The notes beneath the pieces are model-generated. The model made no database searches, had not been told where the DNA came from, and saw only the letters and a list, made by a program, of their open reading frames with translations. From positions 1 through 28,218 of the IMG/VR virus record IMGVR_UViG_3300006916_000275: a stretch of DNA of 28,218 nt; one strand, 5' to 3'. Shown piece after piece: positions 10,085 through 15,745 of this stretch. Origin of the DNA: a virus. Both the position numbers and the translations under genes were made by a program. Within the stretch, counting starts at the first letter, position 1. Every line of letters starts with the position of its first letter.

Positions 10085-11392
10085 TTATTGTATATAGTAC
10101 CTACCTGTTGACCTCAACTCATAGTACATACGCATCATTATAGCATCACTAAAGTCAGGGCTACGGCCTATAGCTAACTTGACATCATCTTTACCTACTA
10201 GCTGTAGCTTAGTGTCTTTGTCATAGTTTTTACGCCTTACTTGTTCTAGTTCTTGTATAATACTGTTGCGTGCACTTATATCATTAGTGTGTAAATATAT
10301 TGCACTACGGTTGATATAGTCAGCAAGTGTATAGTAGCACTGTGTTTTCAAGTTTTGATAGTTTTGCTTTTTTATAGCTGCACTGTTATTTACAAAGCCT
10401 ACACACCTAAGTATATCACGTACACCACCACCTACACCGTCATCATCTACAATTATATTGCTAAGCTTAACACTGTGCATAGCTTGTAGCTTACGTATTT
10501 CATCAGCTGCCTGTGTTACACTGTTACTGCTCAATACGACAAACTGCTCAGCACGTAAGCCGTTCCAGTAAACTATAACTGTCTTGTCTTTACCGTAACG
10601 TGCTATATCTGCTGTTATATACTTGTCACCTGCTTGTATATGTTTGTTGTCAAAGCTGCTTACAATAGCATTATAGTCTATAAGCTTGTCATCACTGTCA
10701 TCATATTCCCAGTTACCAAATAGTAGCCTTTGCTTACTTATATAGTCAAGCTTGTTAAGCTGTTCTTTATAGTGCTTACTTACGTGCTTATTGTCATCTA
10801 CTAGTGACTGTATAAATTTACGGTATACTGGTAGTTTACTTTCTTTGTGGGGCTTGTAGAATGTATGATATACCCACGACTTACTAGGGTTGCAAGTCAA
10901 CAGTACTTTAGGTGTTAAGTTATATTCATCTAGCTTGTAACGTATACGGCTTGCTACTATTTGCTTTGCTTTTTCTGTTATTTGACTGCACTCATCTATA
11001 AACGCTGCTGTAAGTTCTAAACTACCTAAGCTATCAAAATTACGGTCACTAGGGTACTGAAATAAGTCTTTGAGTATAACAGTACTGCCGTTAAAAAAAG
11101 TAATAACATTACTGCTAGCATTATAGCTGTAGTGTGTGTTAGCATGTATACCCCACTGTGCACACACTTCAAAAAAAGTATTGAGTGTAGTTTTTTTAAG
11201 TGTATCTAGTTTACTACGGCCTATCAAACACCTAACACCGTCATATTCTGTACATAAATATATAATAAAACAACAGCCTAGGTATGACTTGCCACCACCT
11301 GCAGCACCACCGTATAAAACTTCTGTAGTAGTTTTGTCAGTAAGGTATTTTAGTGCTATACCTTGCTTAGCTGTTAGTGTCGCTGTCTTCAT
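10085..11392 (-). CDS. terL: Terminase large subunit
   Basis: A 435-residue packaging motor and nuclease. The N-terminal ATPase shows Walker A GGAAGGGKS (residues 28-36), Walker B AAFIDEC with Asp133-Glu134, and a coupling-like LLTCNPS at 164-170. The C-terminal RNase H-like nuclease shows the first Asp in ITADIARYG (about 262), the second in IIVDDDGVGGG (316-318) and a likely third in SPDFSDAIMM near the end. Length is normal. It pumps DNA through the portal and cuts it; closure of the window into a circle with no long repeat suggests headful packaging. It overlaps the small terminase gene by 26 bases. Confidence 0.97.
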   Translation of the reverse strand: MKTATLTAKQGIALKYLTDKTTTEVLYGGAAGGGKSYLGCCFIIYLCTEYDGVRCLIGRSKLDTLKKTTLNTFFEVCAQWGIHANTHYSYNASSNVITFFNGSTVILKDLFQYPSDRNFDSLGSLELTAAFIDECSQITEKAKQIVASRIRYKLDEYNLTPKVLLTCNPSKSWVYHTFYKPHKESKLPVYRKFIQSLVDDNKHVSKHYKEQLNKLDYISKQRLLFGNWEYDDSDDKLIDYNAIVSSFDNKHIQAGDKYITADIARYGKDKTVIVYWNGLRAEQFVVLSSNSVTQAADEIRKLQAMHSVKLSNIIVDDDGVGGGVRDILRCVGFVNNSAAIKKQNYQNLKTQCYYTLADYINRSAIYLHTNDISARNSIIQELEQVRRKNYDKDTKLQLVGKDDVKLAIGRSPDFSDAIMMRMYYELRSTGRYYIQ

Positions 11393-11720
11393 CTATTACA
11401 AGGTTGATACGTACAGGCTTGTCACCCCCAGTGTGTTCAAGTTCTTGCCTTTCAACAAAGCCCCTACGCTTCCCTTTAGTTTTTAAGTAGAATATAGTAG
11501 CAGCTGTGCTACCGTCTTGTATCTGTTCAAATAGTTTACTTTCTGCAAAGTCTAGTGCTACGTCTTGTATAGCTGTTACTTGTGCACTAAAGTCTGCATC
11601 TTCATTTAGCCACCTGTAATAAGTAGCCCTACTTACACCTGCTTTTTGACAGGCTGTAGTCACTACACCTAGTGCTTTTTCTAGTGCTTCTAGTATTGCT
11701 TCTTTTTTAGTGTGTTTCAT
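11367..11720 (-). CDS. terS: Terminase small subunit
   Basis: A 117-residue DNA-binding protein. A helix-turn-helix at about residues 19-40 (VVTTACQKAGVSRATYYRWL) is typical of small terminases that recognise the packaging site. The middle part (DFAESKLFEQIQDGSTAATIFYLKTKGK) forms the usual oligomerisation region, followed by RGFVERQELEHTG and an acidic tail. It lies directly before the large subunit, as is usual, and its start overlaps the end of the dioxygenase gene by 14 bases. Confidence 0.88.
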   Translation of the reverse strand: MKHTKKEAILEALEKALGVVTTACQKAGVSRATYYRWLNEDADFSAQVTAIQDVALDFAESKLFEQIQDGSTAATIFYLKTKGKRRGFVERQELEHTGGDKPVRINLVIDEDSDTNS

Positions 11721-12546
11721 TTGTCTTATTTTTAGGGTTGATACCTTTAGCCCTATTTACTGCACGCTTACGTTTCATAGTGTTAAGCCTTGTCACTTCT
11801 TCTTTATAAGGGTAGCAGTGTTTTAACTGTGCCATAGTATAGTATACTATTGAAGCCCTATAAAAGTCATCAGTATAAGGTGTTATAGGCATTACACCGT
11901 GTATTTCTTCTTGCCCCCTAAATATACACAGTGCACCGTCTAACTGTTCAAGTGCTATACGGTACTCAGGTAGTACTAGCTCACCACCTTTACAGTTCTT
12001 TTTTAGTATTAGTACGTTACTGTAGCTGCCTTTTATATTGCCACTATCACGGTGATACTTTATTGCATGGTTAACGTTTATATTCACTGTAGTGTAAGGT
12101 GTATCAGTTAGCCTATAGTCATCATTGACTAACTGCCGTACTGCAGCTAAGTCATTGTCATATATTTCAGGTAGGTGCTTTTTGTATATATCACATATCA
12201 CGTCTTGAAAAGCAAACATAGTTTTCATGATAGGTTTTTCCTCTATTGTTTTGTTGCTAAAGCGACAAAAGTCATTCCTAAGTGCTACACGTGGCAAAGC
12301 ACCGAATACACTTGACTTTGTGGGTATAGCATTAGTACGGTAAGTTTCTACATACTTTGTAGTGTTGACTGCCTTACGTATACCTTTCAACAGTTGCTTA
12401 TCTATGTTAACATATATACCTATACACACACCGTCTAGGTAAAACTTAGTGTCATCTGTTATAAGTGTATCATAGTGCTCAGCTACTGGTGTACTTTTGA
12501 GCAGTTGTTTACTATCGTTATATTTTGTTAGGTTAACAGTCTTCAT
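11707..12546 (-). CDS. TET/JBP-like 2-oxoglutarate/Fe(II) DNA dioxygenase
   Basis: A 279-residue protein with the full signature of a double-stranded beta-helix 2OG/Fe(II) oxygenase. It has HxD at His165-Asp167 (KYHRDSGN), a GGELVLPEY turn at 188-196, the distal iron-binding His216 (EEIHGVMP) and the 2OG-binding Arg230 (YRASIVYY). The upstream stretch FGALPRVALRNDFCRFS (81-97) fits the TET/JBP group, which oxidises the methyl group of 5-methylcytosine or thymine in DNA. With a C5-cytosine methyltransferase in the same genome, the likely substrate is phage 5-methylcytosine, yielding 5-hydroxymethylcytosine or further products. The C-terminus is very basic, as expected for DNA contact. It overlaps the ParB-like gene by 14 bases. 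Oxygenase fold is nearly certain; the DNA substrate is inference. Confidence 0.85.
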   Translation of the reverse strand: MKTVNLTKYNDSKQLLKSTPVAEHYDTLITDDTKFYLDGVCIGIYVNIDKQLLKGIRKAVNTTKYVETYRTNAIPTKSSVFGALPRVALRNDFCRFSNKTIEEKPIMKTMFAFQDVICDIYKKHLPEIYDNDLAAVRQLVNDDYRLTDTPYTTVNINVNHAIKYHRDSGNIKGSYSNVLILKKNCKGGELVLPEYRIALEQLDGALCIFRGQEEIHGVMPITPYTDDFYRASIVYYTMAQLKHCYPYKEEVTRLNTMKRKRAVNRAKGINPKNKTNETH

Positions 12547-13114
12547 TTTCTAGTATCTTATATATAAGTACCCTGTAGTCATCACAGTCATATTTTTCTA
12601 GCAAGTTTTCTAGTCTGTTTACTACGTCTTCAAACTCATCAGCTTCAAAAGGTATAGTCAAGCTTTTTATTTTAGCTTCCATGAACCTTTCAAGCTTGCT
12701 ATCTACGTCAAGGTTGCTGTAGTCTGTAGTATTGCTTATATCGTCTTCATTTTGCCATACGTCAACACCCCAGTCAGCTAAGTCAACAGTGTTAAATTCG
12801 TTACCTAGTATATCCCAATCCCACTCACCGAATGATACGTTGTCTTTTATTACAAAAGCATCTTGCTGTTCTTTTGTCATATCACTAGCTACTATAATAG
12901 GTATTTCTTTAAGGCCTGCTTCTATACATGCTTTGTATCGCATATTGCCACCTAGTATAACGTTATTTTCATCTACTACTATAGGCCTAAGCTTCAGCAT
13001 ATCAGGTAAGTCTTTTATTGACTGTACTAGCTTTTTAAATTTTATATCTTTTATTAGCCTGGGGTTTTTAGGACTTGGCCTTACAGCACTTATGTGTACT
13101 ACTTGTGTTTTCAT
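12533..13114 (-). CDS. ParB-like nuclease-domain protein
   Basis: A 193-residue protein with an N-terminal ParB/sulfiredoxin-type domain. It includes SPKNPRL (14-20), LRPIVVDENNVILGGNMRYKA (42-62, with the GGNMRYKA motif) and the stretch IKDNVSFGEWDWDIL (89-103), common in ParB-like domains linked to phage DNA methylases. The C-terminal half is acidic and probably helical. ParB-like domains can bind DNA or use CTP, and in phages they often neighbour DNA-modification genes. Here it is translationally coupled to the TET/JBP-like oxygenase, so a shared role in modification or targeting is plausible. No methylase is fused. Confidence 0.8.
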   Translation of the reverse strand: MKTQVVHISAVRPSPKNPRLIKDIKFKKLVQSIKDLPDMLKLRPIVVDENNVILGGNMRYKACIEAGLKEIPIIVASDMTKEQQDAFVIKDNVSFGEWDWDILGNEFNTVDLADWGVDVWQNEDDISNTTDYSNLDVDSKLERFMEAKIKSLTIPFEADEFEDVVNRLENLLEKYDCDDYRVLIYKILENEDC

Positions 13115-13373
13115 TGAAATAGTTTTTATTGATACGTTTCATTTGTTCATTTTCACTGATAAGCTGTAGCCGTTCTAACTCAAAATTGAGGTGGTCTATA
13201 GCTTTTTTTATATCTTGTTTTGCAGGGTTGTTAGGCTTTTTACCTGCACGCAAAAGGTACGTCACTGCAGTCCCTATATTGTATGTTAAGTCATAGTCAT
13301 TTATTACGTGGTATGCATGTATACCCTTATATGCACCTTTATAGTATTTTGGTAGTTCTTTCTTTTTAGTCAT
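13068..13373 (-). CDS. DUF3310-like protein
   Basis: A 101-residue protein with the DUF3310 pattern: PKYYKG at the start, YHVINDYDLTYNIGTAVTYLLRAGKK in the middle, then DIKKAIDHLNFELERL. Phage members are sometimes labelled nucleotide kinase but the biochemical role is not established. It overlaps the ParB-like gene by 47 bases, an unusually long overlap in which both reading frames look genuine. It shares one base with the preceding gene's stop region. Confidence 0.75.
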   Translation of the reverse strand: MTKKKELPKYYKGAYKGIHAYHVINDYDLTYNIGTAVTYLLRAGKKPNNPAKQDIKKAIDHLNFELERLQLISENEQMKRINKNYFNENTSSTHKCCKAKS

Positions 13374-13594
13374 TATTTTTTATTGTCTATATATTTACCC
13401 TCAGCTATTTCTTTTATCCCTTTTAAGCACGTGCTAAGGCATGCACTGCAGCGTGTAGTGTGTTTGTAACGTGTGCCGTATATTGTATTATACAGTTCTA
13501 CTAGCTCACGCTTTACTAAGTGGTTAGGTGCACGGCCTGTGCAGCATAACTTGTATAAGCGTTTAGCTTCTTCTATTTGTTTGTCAGTTACCAT
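13373..13594 (-). CDS. Small protein with CxxC pair
   Basis: About 73 residues from the ATG at 13594-13592 (MVTDKQIEEAKRLYKL), whose bases overlap the upstream TGG TAA end. A longer start at 13624 would create a 37-base overlap and is less likely. The helical N-terminal half is followed by CSACLSTC near the C-terminus, a possible metal site. Function is unknown. Confidence 0.65.
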   Translation of the reverse strand: MVTDKQIEEAKRLYKLCCTGRAPNHLVKRELVELYNTIYGTRYKHTTRCSACLSTCLKGIKEIAEGKYIDNKK

Positions 13595-13818
13595 TTTTTT
13601 AAAGGGCATACTTCTGATTTCCATGCAGCCTTAGTTTCTATAGGACAGCCACATACACTGCATTCTTTATGTTCGTGTTCCATGTATTCACACCTGCTAC
13701 ATGTATGCACCCTATCATAATACACGTCAGTGCTTACATTTTCAAAGCCACCTAGTACACGCTTGCTAACTGCTTTTAGGTAGTTATAGCTTTTTACCAT
13801 TAAGTTTGCCTTTTTCAT
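13588..13818 (-). CDS. Zinc-ribbon protein, DUF6171-like
   Basis: Up to 76 residues. A Lys-rich N-terminal helix is followed by CSRCEYM, CSVCGCPI, and a final Cys in a CPLKKW end, giving CxxC-CxxCxC-C zinc-ribbon spacing. Similar small proteins are frequent in phages of Bacteroidota and Bacillota and have no known activity. An internal ATG at 13800 would halve the overlap with the upstream gene and is equally plausible. DNA or protein binding is inferred from the metal site only. Confidence 0.7.
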   Translation of the reverse strand: MKKANLMVKSYNYLKAVSKRVLGGFENVSTDVYYDRVHTCSRCEYMEHEHKECSVCGCPIETKAAWKSEVCPLKKW

Positions 13819-13993
13819 TTTGTCTTATTAGTTTTATTATACCGTATGCTTCATGTTCATTTAGTATTACGTCTACGTCATCAAAATATACAGTTTCTAA
13901 GTCAAGCACGTATTCTAAATCACCGTTTTCATTATACACTTCTATTATAGGTATTTCATAACCTACTAAGCGTGCTAAGTCATCATAAATCAT
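13784..13993 (-). CDS. Acidic 69-aa protein of unknown function
   Basis: A very acidic small protein in its first two thirds (MIYDDLARLVGYEIPI, then DDVDVILNEHEAYGIIKL) with a basic tail. No family recognised. It overlaps the sigma-factor gene by 11 bases upstream and the zinc-ribbon gene by 35 bases downstream, so it is an integral part of this operon. Confidence 0.6.
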   Translation of the reverse strand: MIYDDLARLVGYEIPIIEVYNENGDLEYVLDLETVYFDDVDVILNEHEAYGIIKLIRQNEKGKLNGKKL

Positions 13994-14522
13994 TCCTTAT
14001 ATCATTTAAGCGTTTTGCTATATGTTTTTTAACACCTTTTATAGTGCTGTATATTGACATTCTGCTTATACCTGTTTTTTGTGCTAGTGTAGTATATGTA
14101 TATTTTTTGTCATCTAGCCTACCTAGTACGTATAGTTTAAATAGTTCCCTATCGTACCAGTATAGTTCTTCTAGCAGTTCATTTATTATATCAACACCCT
14201 GTATAATATATAAAGTGTCATCGTACTGTTTGTCAGCTGTTTTGTGTAGCATACCTTTTGCTAGGTCTGTATGGTATGTTACAAGTTCGTATTCTTTTTG
14301 GTAGGTGTAGTAGTATCTGCTTGTCTTGCTGTAGTAGTTTAGCTTGCACATACGGTTGAAATACGGATATATTTCATCACTCGCTACTAACTGCTGCAGC
14401 TTGCTACTTTCCATAGTCAATAACTGCACAAATACTTCTTGCACTAAGTCATCTAAATCTGCAGCTGGTATAAAGTTAGCTGCTATACTTTTTAGTTGCC
14501 TGCATAGTTTGTCGCTGAGCAT
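13983..14522 (-). CDS. Sigma-70-like (ECF-type) RNA polymerase sigma factor
   Basis: A 179-residue protein with sigma-70 organisation. DLDDLVQEVFVQLL (about 22-35) matches region 2, which binds core polymerase and the -10 element. The C-terminal helix-turn-helix at about 139-170 (YTTLAQKTGISRMSIYSTIKGV) matches region 4. A phage sigma factor would redirect host RNA polymerase to phage promoters, most likely for the structural genes further along. The repeated AT-rich 14-bp motif is a candidate target, though nothing in the sequence proves this. A perfect inverted repeat lies in its leader at 14574-14595. Confidence 0.78.
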   Translation of the reverse strand: MLSDKLCRQLKSIAANFIPAADLDDLVQEVFVQLLTMESSKLQQLVASDEIYPYFNRMCKLNYYSKTSRYYYTYQKEYELVTYHTDLAKGMLHKTADKQYDDTLYIIQGVDIINELLEELYWYDRELFKLYVLGRLDDKKYTYTTLAQKTGISRMSIYSTIKGVKKHIAKRLNDIRNDL

Positions 14523-14573
14523 AGGACAATACTATACAAATTATTGATATATAAAAGGTGTGTGTAATAAAGT

Positions 14574-14595
14574 TATCAACAGTTGAATGTTGATA
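14574..14595. repeat. Perfect 8-bp inverted repeat in sigma-factor leader
   Basis: Arms tatcaaca and tgttgata flank a 6-base spacer, 52 bases upstream of the sigma-factor ATG and 4 bases after the NinG-like stop. On the minus strand it is followed by a weakly T-rich stretch (ACTTTATTAC). It could be a weak terminator or an operator for the sigma gene. It contains one copy of the over-represented octamer ACTGTTGA. Confidence 0.5.
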
Positions 14596-14599
14596 GTAG

Positions 14600-15022
14600 C
14601 TATATAAGTTCTTTTAACCTAGCTTTATAGTAGTCTATCATTTCTTGTAGTTCAACAGTACTAAATTTACTAGCTTGCTTGCTTTTTATTTGCAGCTGCT
14701 GTACTATATCTTTACCTAGCTCTGCAGTTAGCCTACTACCGAACAGCCACTGCTCACCCTGTGCAAACAGGTTGCAGCGTGGGCATTGTGGCCTGCAGTT
14801 GTTTTCATCCCAGCGTGTTGACAAGTGCCTACGTGATATGAAGTGACCGTTATGCATTTCTTTTACATGTTTTTTATTATAGCAAGTGTAACACTCAACA
14901 ATACCGTTGTCATCAGCTGCAGCATATCGTACATACTGACTAAAGACCTTGTCTAGTTCTTTTTTTAGTTTTGTGTGTGTTTTCTTCATACTGCTTATTA
15001 CGCTTTTGTAAACGGTGCTCAA
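14600..15022 (-). CDS. ninG: NinG-like recombination nuclease
   Basis: A 140-residue protein resembling lambda NinG (Rap), a nuclease acting on recombination intermediates. After a Lys-rich helix with LDKVFSQYVR, metal-binding pairs appear: CYTC (Cys44, Cys47), HNGHFISRR (His57, His60) and CPRC (Cys80, Cys83), with RWDENNCRPQC linking them. This HNH-like pattern is the NinG core. The protein is shorter than lambda NinG (about 200 residues). A second Met at residue 12 is an alternative start. The gene overlaps the small membrane-protein gene upstream by 83 bases. Confidence 0.8.
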   Translation of the reverse strand: MSTVYKSVISSMKKTHTKLKKELDKVFSQYVRYAAADDNGIVECYTCYNKKHVKEMHNGHFISRRHLSTRWDENNCRPQCPRCNLFAQGEQWLFGSRLTAELGKDIVQQLQIKSKQASKFSTVELQEMIDYYKARLKELI

Positions 15023-15095
15023 AATATAAAGCTAGTAGTATATATGCACTAACTTGTATCAGTACTATAATATATAAAGCTTTTAGTGCTGTCAT
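14940..15095 (-). CDS. Small single-pass membrane protein (51 aa)
   Basis: ATG at 15095-15093, 2 bases after the methyltransferase stop, TAG at 14942-14940. The product begins MTALKALYII, has one hydrophobic segment at residues 5-24, then a charged Arg/Lys-rich tail (HKTKKRTRQGL) expected in the cytoplasm. It overlaps the NinG-like gene by 83 bases in another frame. The tight spacing after the methyltransferase and the clean membrane-plus-basic design support it. Function is unknown; it could anchor a phage protein or affect the membrane. Confidence 0.5.
   Translation of the reverse strand: MTALKALYIIVLIQVSAYILLALYFEHRLQKRNKQYEENTHKTKKRTRQGL
15063..15076 (-). promoter_or_regulatory. AT-rich 14-bp motif, copy 40 bases before NinG-like start
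   Basis: The minus strand reads TATATATTATAGTA. Here it also encodes part of the hydrophobic segment of the 51-residue membrane protein (LYIIV), so the match could be coding coincidence, but its distance to the NinG-like start is promoter-like. Confidence 0.3.
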
Positions 15096-15097
15096 TT

Positions 15098-15745
15098 TTA
15101 AAAAATTTTATACTGTTTTGTATCGTTGCTTTCGTATATACCCAACACTGTCTTGAATATAGTTTCACCTGCTTGATAGTCTACTAAATTTCTTGCAATT
15201 TTTAGAATAGGTTGTTCACCTTTGTATTGAGTAAAGTCATAGTCATGAAATTCACATAACCTATTTAGTTCATCAGTGCCTTGGCATACTTTAGCTACCC
15301 TGTCACCTAAATCATTAGGCAAGTTAAAATTAGTCCAATATAAGTGCCTATTTCTTTTTTTTGGGTTTAGCAGGGGCTCATAGTATGGTGTCACATTTTC
15401 TACTACATACTTACCTTTATAGTGGTAGTCTAATAGTAGTATTTCTTCATACAGTTTCATGTTTGGGTATATAGGGTTTTTGCCATTAGCACCTATTGAC
15501 CAATACCTAGCCCTGCTGTGTGTTGGGCAAGGTGGTGATGACCATATAAAGTCATACTTACTATAGTTATGTAAAAGGTAGTCATGTGCATCTTGCACTA
15601 ATACTGTATCGCCTGGGAAACGTTTTGCATATAATTTAGCTAGTTCTTCATCAAGTTCTACAGCTGTAACATGTATATCTTTTTTAACGTCATTCCATTT
15701 GTAACGGTTGCCACCTAAGCAAGCATATAGGTTTAGTATGTTCAT
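15098..15745 (-). CDS. Compact C5-cytosine DNA methyltransferase
   Basis: A 215-residue enzyme that transfers methyl from S-adenosylmethionine to carbon 5 of cytosine. Motifs in order are a SAM-site LYACLGGN (6-13), acidic VTAVELDEE (26-34), QDAHDYL (51-57), the catalytic loop SSPPCPTHSRAR (69-80, nucleophile Cys73), VVENV (114-118), RNRHLYW (131-137) and a C-terminal IARNLVDYQAG segment (183-193). It is much shorter than M.HhaI (327 residues), so the target-recognition part is reduced, hinting at a short target site. No nuclease partner is present, so it is not a restriction system. With the TET/JBP-like oxygenase it probably makes oxidised methylcytosine in phage DNA. Confidence 0.9.
   Translation of the reverse strand: MNILNLYACLGGNRYKWNDVKKDIHVTAVELDEELAKLYAKRFPGDTVLVQDAHDYLLHNYSKYDFIWSSPPCPTHSRARYWSIGANGKNPIYPNMKLYEEILLLDYHYKGKYVVENVTPYYEPLLNPKKRNRHLYWTNFNLPNDLGDRVAKVCQGTDELNRLCEFHDYDFTQYKGEQPILKIARNLVDYQAGETIFKTVLGIYESNDTKQYKIF

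Follow-up and report, generated by a model that had tools for sequence, protein, structure and literature searches.

A ParB-like protein with a partner-specific tail as the conserved companion of a TET/JBP-type DNA oxygenase beside the terminase genes of a flavobacterial-type phage

The virus record IMGVR_UViG_3300006916_000275 (IMG/VR), here called the window, is a linear sequence of 28,218 bases, and the genome that it represents is therefore incomplete. It encodes a TET/JBP-type DNA oxygenase whose gene is packed between that of a ParB-like protein and the terminase genes. The analysis presented here concerns this ParB-oxygenase pair, the enzymes that are found in the place of the oxygenase in related phages, and a short C5-cytosine methyltransferase encoded nearby. 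All main genes of the window are carried on the minus strand, and those discussed below are as follows.

12533..13114, minus strand: ParB-like protein, 193 amino acids (PF02195)
12761..13114, minus strand: N-terminal domain of the ParB-like protein, residues 1-118, predicted ParB/Noc/Spo0J CTPase fold (PF02195, profile, Foldseek)
12533..12760, minus strand: C-terminal tail of the ParB-like protein, residues 119-193, partner-specific, proposed oxygenase docking module (partner-class prediction)
11707..12546, minus strand: TET/JBP-type Fe(II)/2-oxoglutarate DNA dioxygenase, 279 amino acids (Pfam, profile, AlphaFold2 model, invariant residues)
11367..11720, minus strand: terminase small subunit (TerS), directly downstream of the oxygenase gene and far border of the exchange slot (PHROG_309, E = 1.7e-10; kept position)
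10085..11392, minus strand: terminase large subunit (TerL; 55% identity to Flavobacterium phage 11b TerL)
15098..15745, minus strand: short C5-cytosine methyltransferase, 215 amino acids (PF00145, E = 3.1e-07)

The oxygenase gene overlaps the ParB gene by 14 nucleotides (nt) (12533-12546), an overlap already described in the earlier note on this DNA, and it also overlaps the TerS gene by 14 nt (11707-11720), which is absent from that note. Because such overlaps are present on both sides of the oxygenase gene, the genes for ParB, TET, TerS, and TerL are considered one tightly packed block. The methyltransferase gene lies ∼2 kb and several small open reading frames (ORFs) upstream of the ParB gene, and the oxygenase gene is not its neighbor. 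The three ORFs singled out in the earlier note (methyltransferase, oxygenase, and ParB) were recovered as described there, together with the PPC and VEN motifs of the methyltransferase and residues H165, D167, H216, and R230 of the oxygenase. The median ratios of nonsynonymous to synonymous substitution rates across the three families (0.085, 0.081, and 0.09) point to purifying selection, with the synonymous rates near saturation.

The identity of the oxygenase as a TET/JBP enzyme is established by sequence comparison and structural modeling. The protein matches the Tet_JBP family (PF12851) with E = 9.8e-19 and 67.6 bits (Pfam cut-off, 34.9), and a profile built from 30 of its relatives finds human TET2 at E = 6e-08, with HRDSGN placed over HRDLHN. 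The AlphaFold2 model (predicted local distance difference test [pLDDT], 88.8; predicted template modeling score [pTM], 0.84) is closest to TET2 (VIA Z, 20.0 over 257 residues), NgTet1 (19.3), and CMD1 (18.5), whereas other 2-oxoglutarate (2OG) oxygenases reach at most 15.2. The profile searches and structure prediction that the earlier note had proposed thus agree with its assignments, both this protein and the methyltransferase scoring above the cut-offs of Tet_JBP and DNA_methylase, respectively. Membership in the prolyl hydroxylases or another non-DNA 2OG family, the alternative named in that note, is ruled out by Pfam, profile, and fold. Residues H165, D167, N170, H216, and R230 show no variation among the homologs aligned at these positions (111 to 112 sequences); H165, D167, and H216 are predicted iron ligands, and R230 is predicted to bind 2OG. 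N170 aligns with the base-contact position occupied by TET2 N1387, NgTet1 D234, and CMD1 D350, which hold N4 of 5-methylcytosine (5mC) (PMC7854593, PMC11040006).

An identity as DpdA or "queuine tRNA-ribosyltransferase" (PHROG_6059) was also considered and rejected, this annotation being carried along in records while Pfam, profile, and fold all indicate TET/JBP. The same label is attached to PHROG_6059 and to the TET/JBP proteins gp2 of NC_011044 (L171; L numbers are our handles for individual records) and gp2 of NC_022064 (L261), and the TET/JBP proteins of Cr30, S-CBWM1, and HTVC112P are labeled "putative SNF2 DNA repair protein." Both labels probably represent propagated misannotation.

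Homologs were collected by pattern-based scans, which favor close relatives, and the records compared are fragments. Among 80 viral relatives, nearly all of those with sufficient flanking sequence have the ParB gene directly upstream, and the terminase genes directly downstream, of the TET gene. The same unit is present in the complete phages Nigel, Kharcho, Terij, LittleMunchkin, Reprobate, LilMcDreamy, and MED4-117. The order is ParB, TET, TerS, and TerL in Mycobacterium phage Nigel and ParB, TET, one ORF, and terminase in Microbacterium phage Terij; Gordonia phage LittleMunchkin and Arthrobacter phage Kharcho have additional modification genes (P-loop kinase) after TET and ahead of the terminase, and in Cyanophage MED4-117, an FkbM-type methyltransferase separates ParB from TET. 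The genetic partner of the oxygenase is the ParB-like protein and not the nearby C5-methyltransferase. The ParB coupling picked out in the earlier note is real and deeply conserved, the unit extending from this phage to Mycobacterium phage Nigel.

Other genes of these neighborhoods were recorded as well. FkbM-type methyltransferases beside TET (L169, 7192-7893, and L258, 5527-6225; Cyanophage MED4-117 and Pelagibacter phage HTVC112P) possibly O-methylate the hydroxymethyl base. P-loop kinases (Pfam Ploopntkinase3) at L168 3234-3764 and L170 7741-8283 fall into PHROG_800, which is labeled "terminase small subunit."

By sequence and fold comparison, the N-terminal domain of the ParB-like protein is a ParB/Noc/Spo0J CTPase-fold domain, with CTP and DNA binding as predicted activities. 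Residues 4-86 match ParB_N (PF02195; E = 2.6e-07; 31 bits; cut-off, 26.3), a profile of the domain matches ParB, Noc, and Spo0J with E values down to 6e-09, and Foldseek matches it to CTP/CDP-bound ParB. The tail (approximately residues 119-193), predicted to be helical in a moderate-confidence model, varies with the partner enzyme.

The contents of the slot between ParB and TerS were surveyed with a TerS scan that was blind to the enzyme and gave 80 loci. Where TET is present, the slot holds TET alone, a TAGT-type glycosyltransferase with TET, or PALP, ADDT, and P-loop genes with TET. Slots lacking TET contain a glycosyltransferase alone, Mom (PF25680; E = 1.6e-37), an N6/N4 methyltransferase fused to ParB, an ABC-ATPase with a GNAT protein, a PAPS reductase, DpdA with Que-like genes (both called by inspection), or nothing. 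For example, L105 shares the gene order of the window (methyltransferase, NinG, sigma, further genes, ParB, TerS, and TerL), with a fusion of ParB and an N6/N4 methyltransferase replacing ParB and TET; in both L105 and L200, ParB_N is fused directly to such methyltransferases.

Several slots merit separate description. L203 (2206-6002) encodes ParB, a PALP-like pyridoxal phosphate enzyme, an ADDT/P-loop fusion, and TET, followed by TerS, and thus resembles a complete thymidine hypermodification cassette. A gene between those for ParB and TET in L188 (4473-5189) encodes a putative glycosyltransferase that itself matches neither Pfam nor PHROG but can be aligned to the TAGT-like set. In the PAPS-reductase slots of L213 (3672-4328) and L242 (4788-5447), the reductase is followed by another ParB-like protein that differs from the first, an arrangement recalling IbrAB, and the first ParB in these slot types terminates in a CPxCxHEFN-like motif. 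Finally, in L206 (4158-6002), ParB is followed by an ABC-type ATPase, a GNAT protein, and a formyltransferase, a possible further DNA acylation or formylation chemistry.

The relation between ParB and its partner was quantified for 89 ParB proteins, dereplicated at 85% N-domain identity, by the partner class of the nearest neighbor, classes being defined by hidden Markov models that each derive from a single seed, with representatives confirmed by Pfam. With the three TET-containing classes merged, which was done after their shared TET type had been seen, the nearest neighbor by tail shares the partner class in 87 of 89 cases (label shuffles: mean, 25.2; maximum, 38), whereas the nearest neighbor by N-domain does so in 27 (chance, 25.4); with the classes unmerged, the figures are 84/89 and 25/89, respectively. 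The tail-partner match holds for tails of <70% identity (59/61) and of <55% identity (35/40).

Individual pairs of loci exhibit the same dissociation. Compared with the window, L174 is 73% identical in the N-domain, 82% in TerS, and 84% in TerL, and yet its tail (33%) and its TET (28%) are of another type. Conversely, L012 resembles the window in its tail (67%) and TET (72%) on a foreign background (N-domain, 36%; TerL, 21%), and the same is the case for L074 (tail, 49%; TET, 51%; N-domain, 30%; TerL, 21%). A further locus, L177, has the backbone of the window, no TET, and a shortened ParB. Because of this double dissociation and the tail-partner match, the exchanged unit is taken to be the tail together with the enzyme, with the seam inside ParB.

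We propose, with a probability of roughly 55%, that the two proteins constitute a cassette in which an adaptor with a ParB-CTPase fold and an enzyme-specific docking tail delivers the TET/JBP oxygenase to phage DNA, where it most likely oxidizes thymine. The N-terminal domain would bind phage DNA and position the complex there, perhaps as a nucleotide-gated clamp, and the tail would dock the oxygenase. The oxygenase would then hydroxylate a flipped-out 5-methylpyrimidine before packaging; thymine is the most likely base and would become 5-hydroxymethyluracil at places selected by ParB. The cassette is encoded immediately upstream of the terminase genes, and the slot of sister phages carries other chemistries joined to this ParB head. 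Docking of the partner enzyme by the tail is suggested as the simplest reason for their co-inheritance, and we infer DNA targeting by the N-terminal domain and an anti-restriction benefit. A broader proposal is more tentative, namely, that a universal ParB CTPase head with interchangeable tails, perhaps CTP-gated, loads unrelated DNA-modification enzymes beside the terminase in tailed phages of several host groups. The chemistries would comprise TET oxidation, momylation, glycosylation, 7-deazaguanine exchange, amino-acid addition, and perhaps phosphorothioation, the case described here being thymine oxidation without a cytosine methyltransferase.

Co-inheritance of tail and enzyme could also come about by hitchhiking, the main alternative to docking, although we consider it unlikely. 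Cassettes would recombine within the conserved N-domain sequence, a natural anchor for homologous recombination, and the tail, which physically adjoins the enzyme gene, would be carried along without docking. This adjacency weighs against our proposal, as does the merging of the TET classes after inspection. However, TerS, which overlaps the oxygenase gene on the opposite side, does not track the enzyme, predicting the partner class in 21 of 63 cases versus 60 of 63 for the tail. Moreover, tails are kept within classes (normalized score, 0.40) and unrelated between them (0.03), loci that lack the enzyme (L177, L110, and L212) have a shortened ParB, and enzymes fused to ParB_N occupy the place of the tail.

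The short methyltransferase matches DNA_methylase (PF00145) with E = 3.1e-07 and 30.6 bits (cut-off, 22) and contains PPC at residues 71-73 and VEN at residues 115-117. Its length, regarded as unusual in the earlier note, is normal for its family (211 to 222 residues), which is common in flavobacterial phages, and truncation is ruled out because the entire family is equally short. Motifs I, IV, VI, VIII, and X are kept in 13 aligned family members, which suggests a catalytically complete enzyme. A CmoX-type carboxymethyltransferase was no more than considered; the residue numbering of CmoX reaches 350, and no CmoA was seen. Directly upstream of the short C5-methyltransferase, L110 encodes another ParB-like protein (1343-2089), unrelated to the first.

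In the scheme put forward in the earlier note, cytosines of a short motif would be methylated to 5mC by this methyltransferase and then converted to 5-hydroxymethylcytosine by the oxygenase. Both genes are indeed present in the window, as they are in L207, the methyltransferase motifs are complete, the closest folds of the oxygenase (TET2, NgTet1, and CMD1) act on 5mC, and N170 is compatible with this substrate. The pairing is nevertheless sporadic and not supported by the distribution of the genes. Members of this methyltransferase family were not found in the fetched flanks of the 80 viral TET relatives, nor was TET found among 80 methyltransferase relatives. Whole-record searches detected any PF00145 enzyme in 8 of 73 TET records (5/50 and 3/23) versus 2 of 48 TET-free relatives found through TerS (Fisher p = 0.31), and in 5 of the 25 TET records of at least 20 kb. 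A C5-methyltransferase was found in 0 of 13 complete named phages with this oxygenase, and Tet_JBP was found in 0 of 50 methyltransferase records by a search that does detect it in the window. The closest relatives keep ParB-TET-TerS without the methyltransferase. This scheme is accordingly doubtful, and cytosine as the target of the oxygenase becomes a minority reading, as thymine needs no methyltransferase; the short methyltransferase, judging from its relatives, is probably an independent orphan enzyme with no fixed oxygenase partner.

With regard to the substrate, thymine, giving 5-hydroxymethyluracil, appears to be the best candidate, 5mC of phage or host origin is its main rival but a distinctly weaker candidate, and any other substrate is improbable. 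Thymine is preferred because this TET lineage occurs in many phages without a C5-methyltransferase and thymine is the 5-methylpyrimidine that is always at hand. ADDT, an enzyme of the 5-hydroxymethyluracil-based thymidine hypermodification pathway, is encoded in 5 of the 13 complete TET phages, and the slot of L203 likewise combines PALP and ADDT/P-loop with TET. The best E value of the phage TET matches was that of Tonitrus, a Rhodococcus phage published as a thymidine hypermodification candidate (PMC11955845). Several observations weigh against thymine. N170 is shared with the 5mC enzyme TET2 (N1387), and thymine and 5mC therefore cannot be told apart from the active site (PMC7854593, PMC11040006); the TET enzyme of the window shares only ∼21 to 31% identity with those of phages that encode ADDT or kinases; the window itself carries a C5-methyltransferase, and host 5mC is also conceivable; and the counts rest on fragmentary records. 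N170 was rejected as a thymine signature, TET2 having Asn there too, and it does not decide the substrate because an Asn at this position is in principle able to pair with either T or 5mC. Finally, it is quite improbable that the oxygenase acts on host-deposited 5mC in phage or host DNA, countering methylation-dependent defense or serving host takeover: this would account for TET without a phage C5-methyltransferase and suits the fold, but it requires widespread C5-methylation across Mycobacterium, Prochlorococcus, and flavobacterial hosts, and other slot occupants (Mom, DpdA, and N6/N4 methyltransferases) modify self-DNA.

As in the earlier note, no glycosyltransferase was recognized, and neither was a kinase, ADDT, or PPlase, among the 20 proteins scanned in the window, itself a fragment; no TAGT-like glycosyltransferase was found in the flanks of close relatives. 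Because the window and its nearest relatives have no recognized glycosyltransferase, kinase, or ADDT next to the cassette, the modification in this phage probably ends with the hydroxymethyl base, 5-hydroxymethyluracil, or with a more oxidized form of it.

The phage is marine and, judged by its protein matches, flavobacterial in type: its capsid protein matches Nonlabens phages, and its methyltransferase is 62% identical to those of Flavobacterium phages. An independent assembly, L081, is 98 to 100% identical over the methyltransferase, NinG, sigma, and replication genes, and a search of bacterial genomes confirmed no host or prophage relatives. A weakly sigma-factor-like protein is encoded at 13983-14522 (sigma-K PHROG, 0.0044; Sigma70_r2, 0.0041), and its position between NinG and ParB is kept in relatives.

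The role of ParBc beside phage DNA-modifying enzymes has been stated as unknown (PMC12783734). Across nine partner classes, the identity of the enzyme goes with the tail rather than with the head. This offers a simple, testable answer, in which the head would be the common DNA-loading part and the tail the docking part. Each tail is then predicted to bind its own enzyme only, and ParB-TET phages are predicted to contain oxidized thymine even without a cytosine methyltransferase.

Comparison with known systems places the window enzyme with the TET/JBP family (mycobacteriophage gp2, TET2, NgTet1, CMD1, and CcTet), with which it shares the double-stranded beta-helix over the whole domain, the HxD...H and Arg residues, and an Asn or Asp three residues past the iron-binding Asp; it differs in being ∼21 to 31% identical to the actinophage and cyanophage members and in its ParB, which has a tail type of its own. 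The thymidine hypermodification cassettes (ADDT, 5-hydroxymethyluracil kinase, and aGPT-PPlase; e.g., in Tonitrus) likewise have ParB and TET/JBP near the terminase in a similar order, whereas no kinase, ADDT, or PPlase was recognized in the window, where the pathway probably goes no further than the hydroxymethyl base. Phage clusters of C5-methyltransferase, TET, and glycosyltransferase were reportedly described by Burke et al. in 2021; the window also holds a C5-methyltransferase and a TET, but the two are neither adjacent nor co-conserved, and no glycosyltransferase was recognized. Finally, the ParB-fused N6/N4 methyltransferases and the ParB-linked Mom, DpdA, and CmoX cassettes have the same ParB_N head, and the fused methyltransferases, Mom, and DpdA occupy the same slot before TerS as the window oxygenase; the window differs from these cassettes in that its enzyme is an oxygenase with a gene of its own, which overlaps that of ParB, and in the TET-type tail of its ParB.

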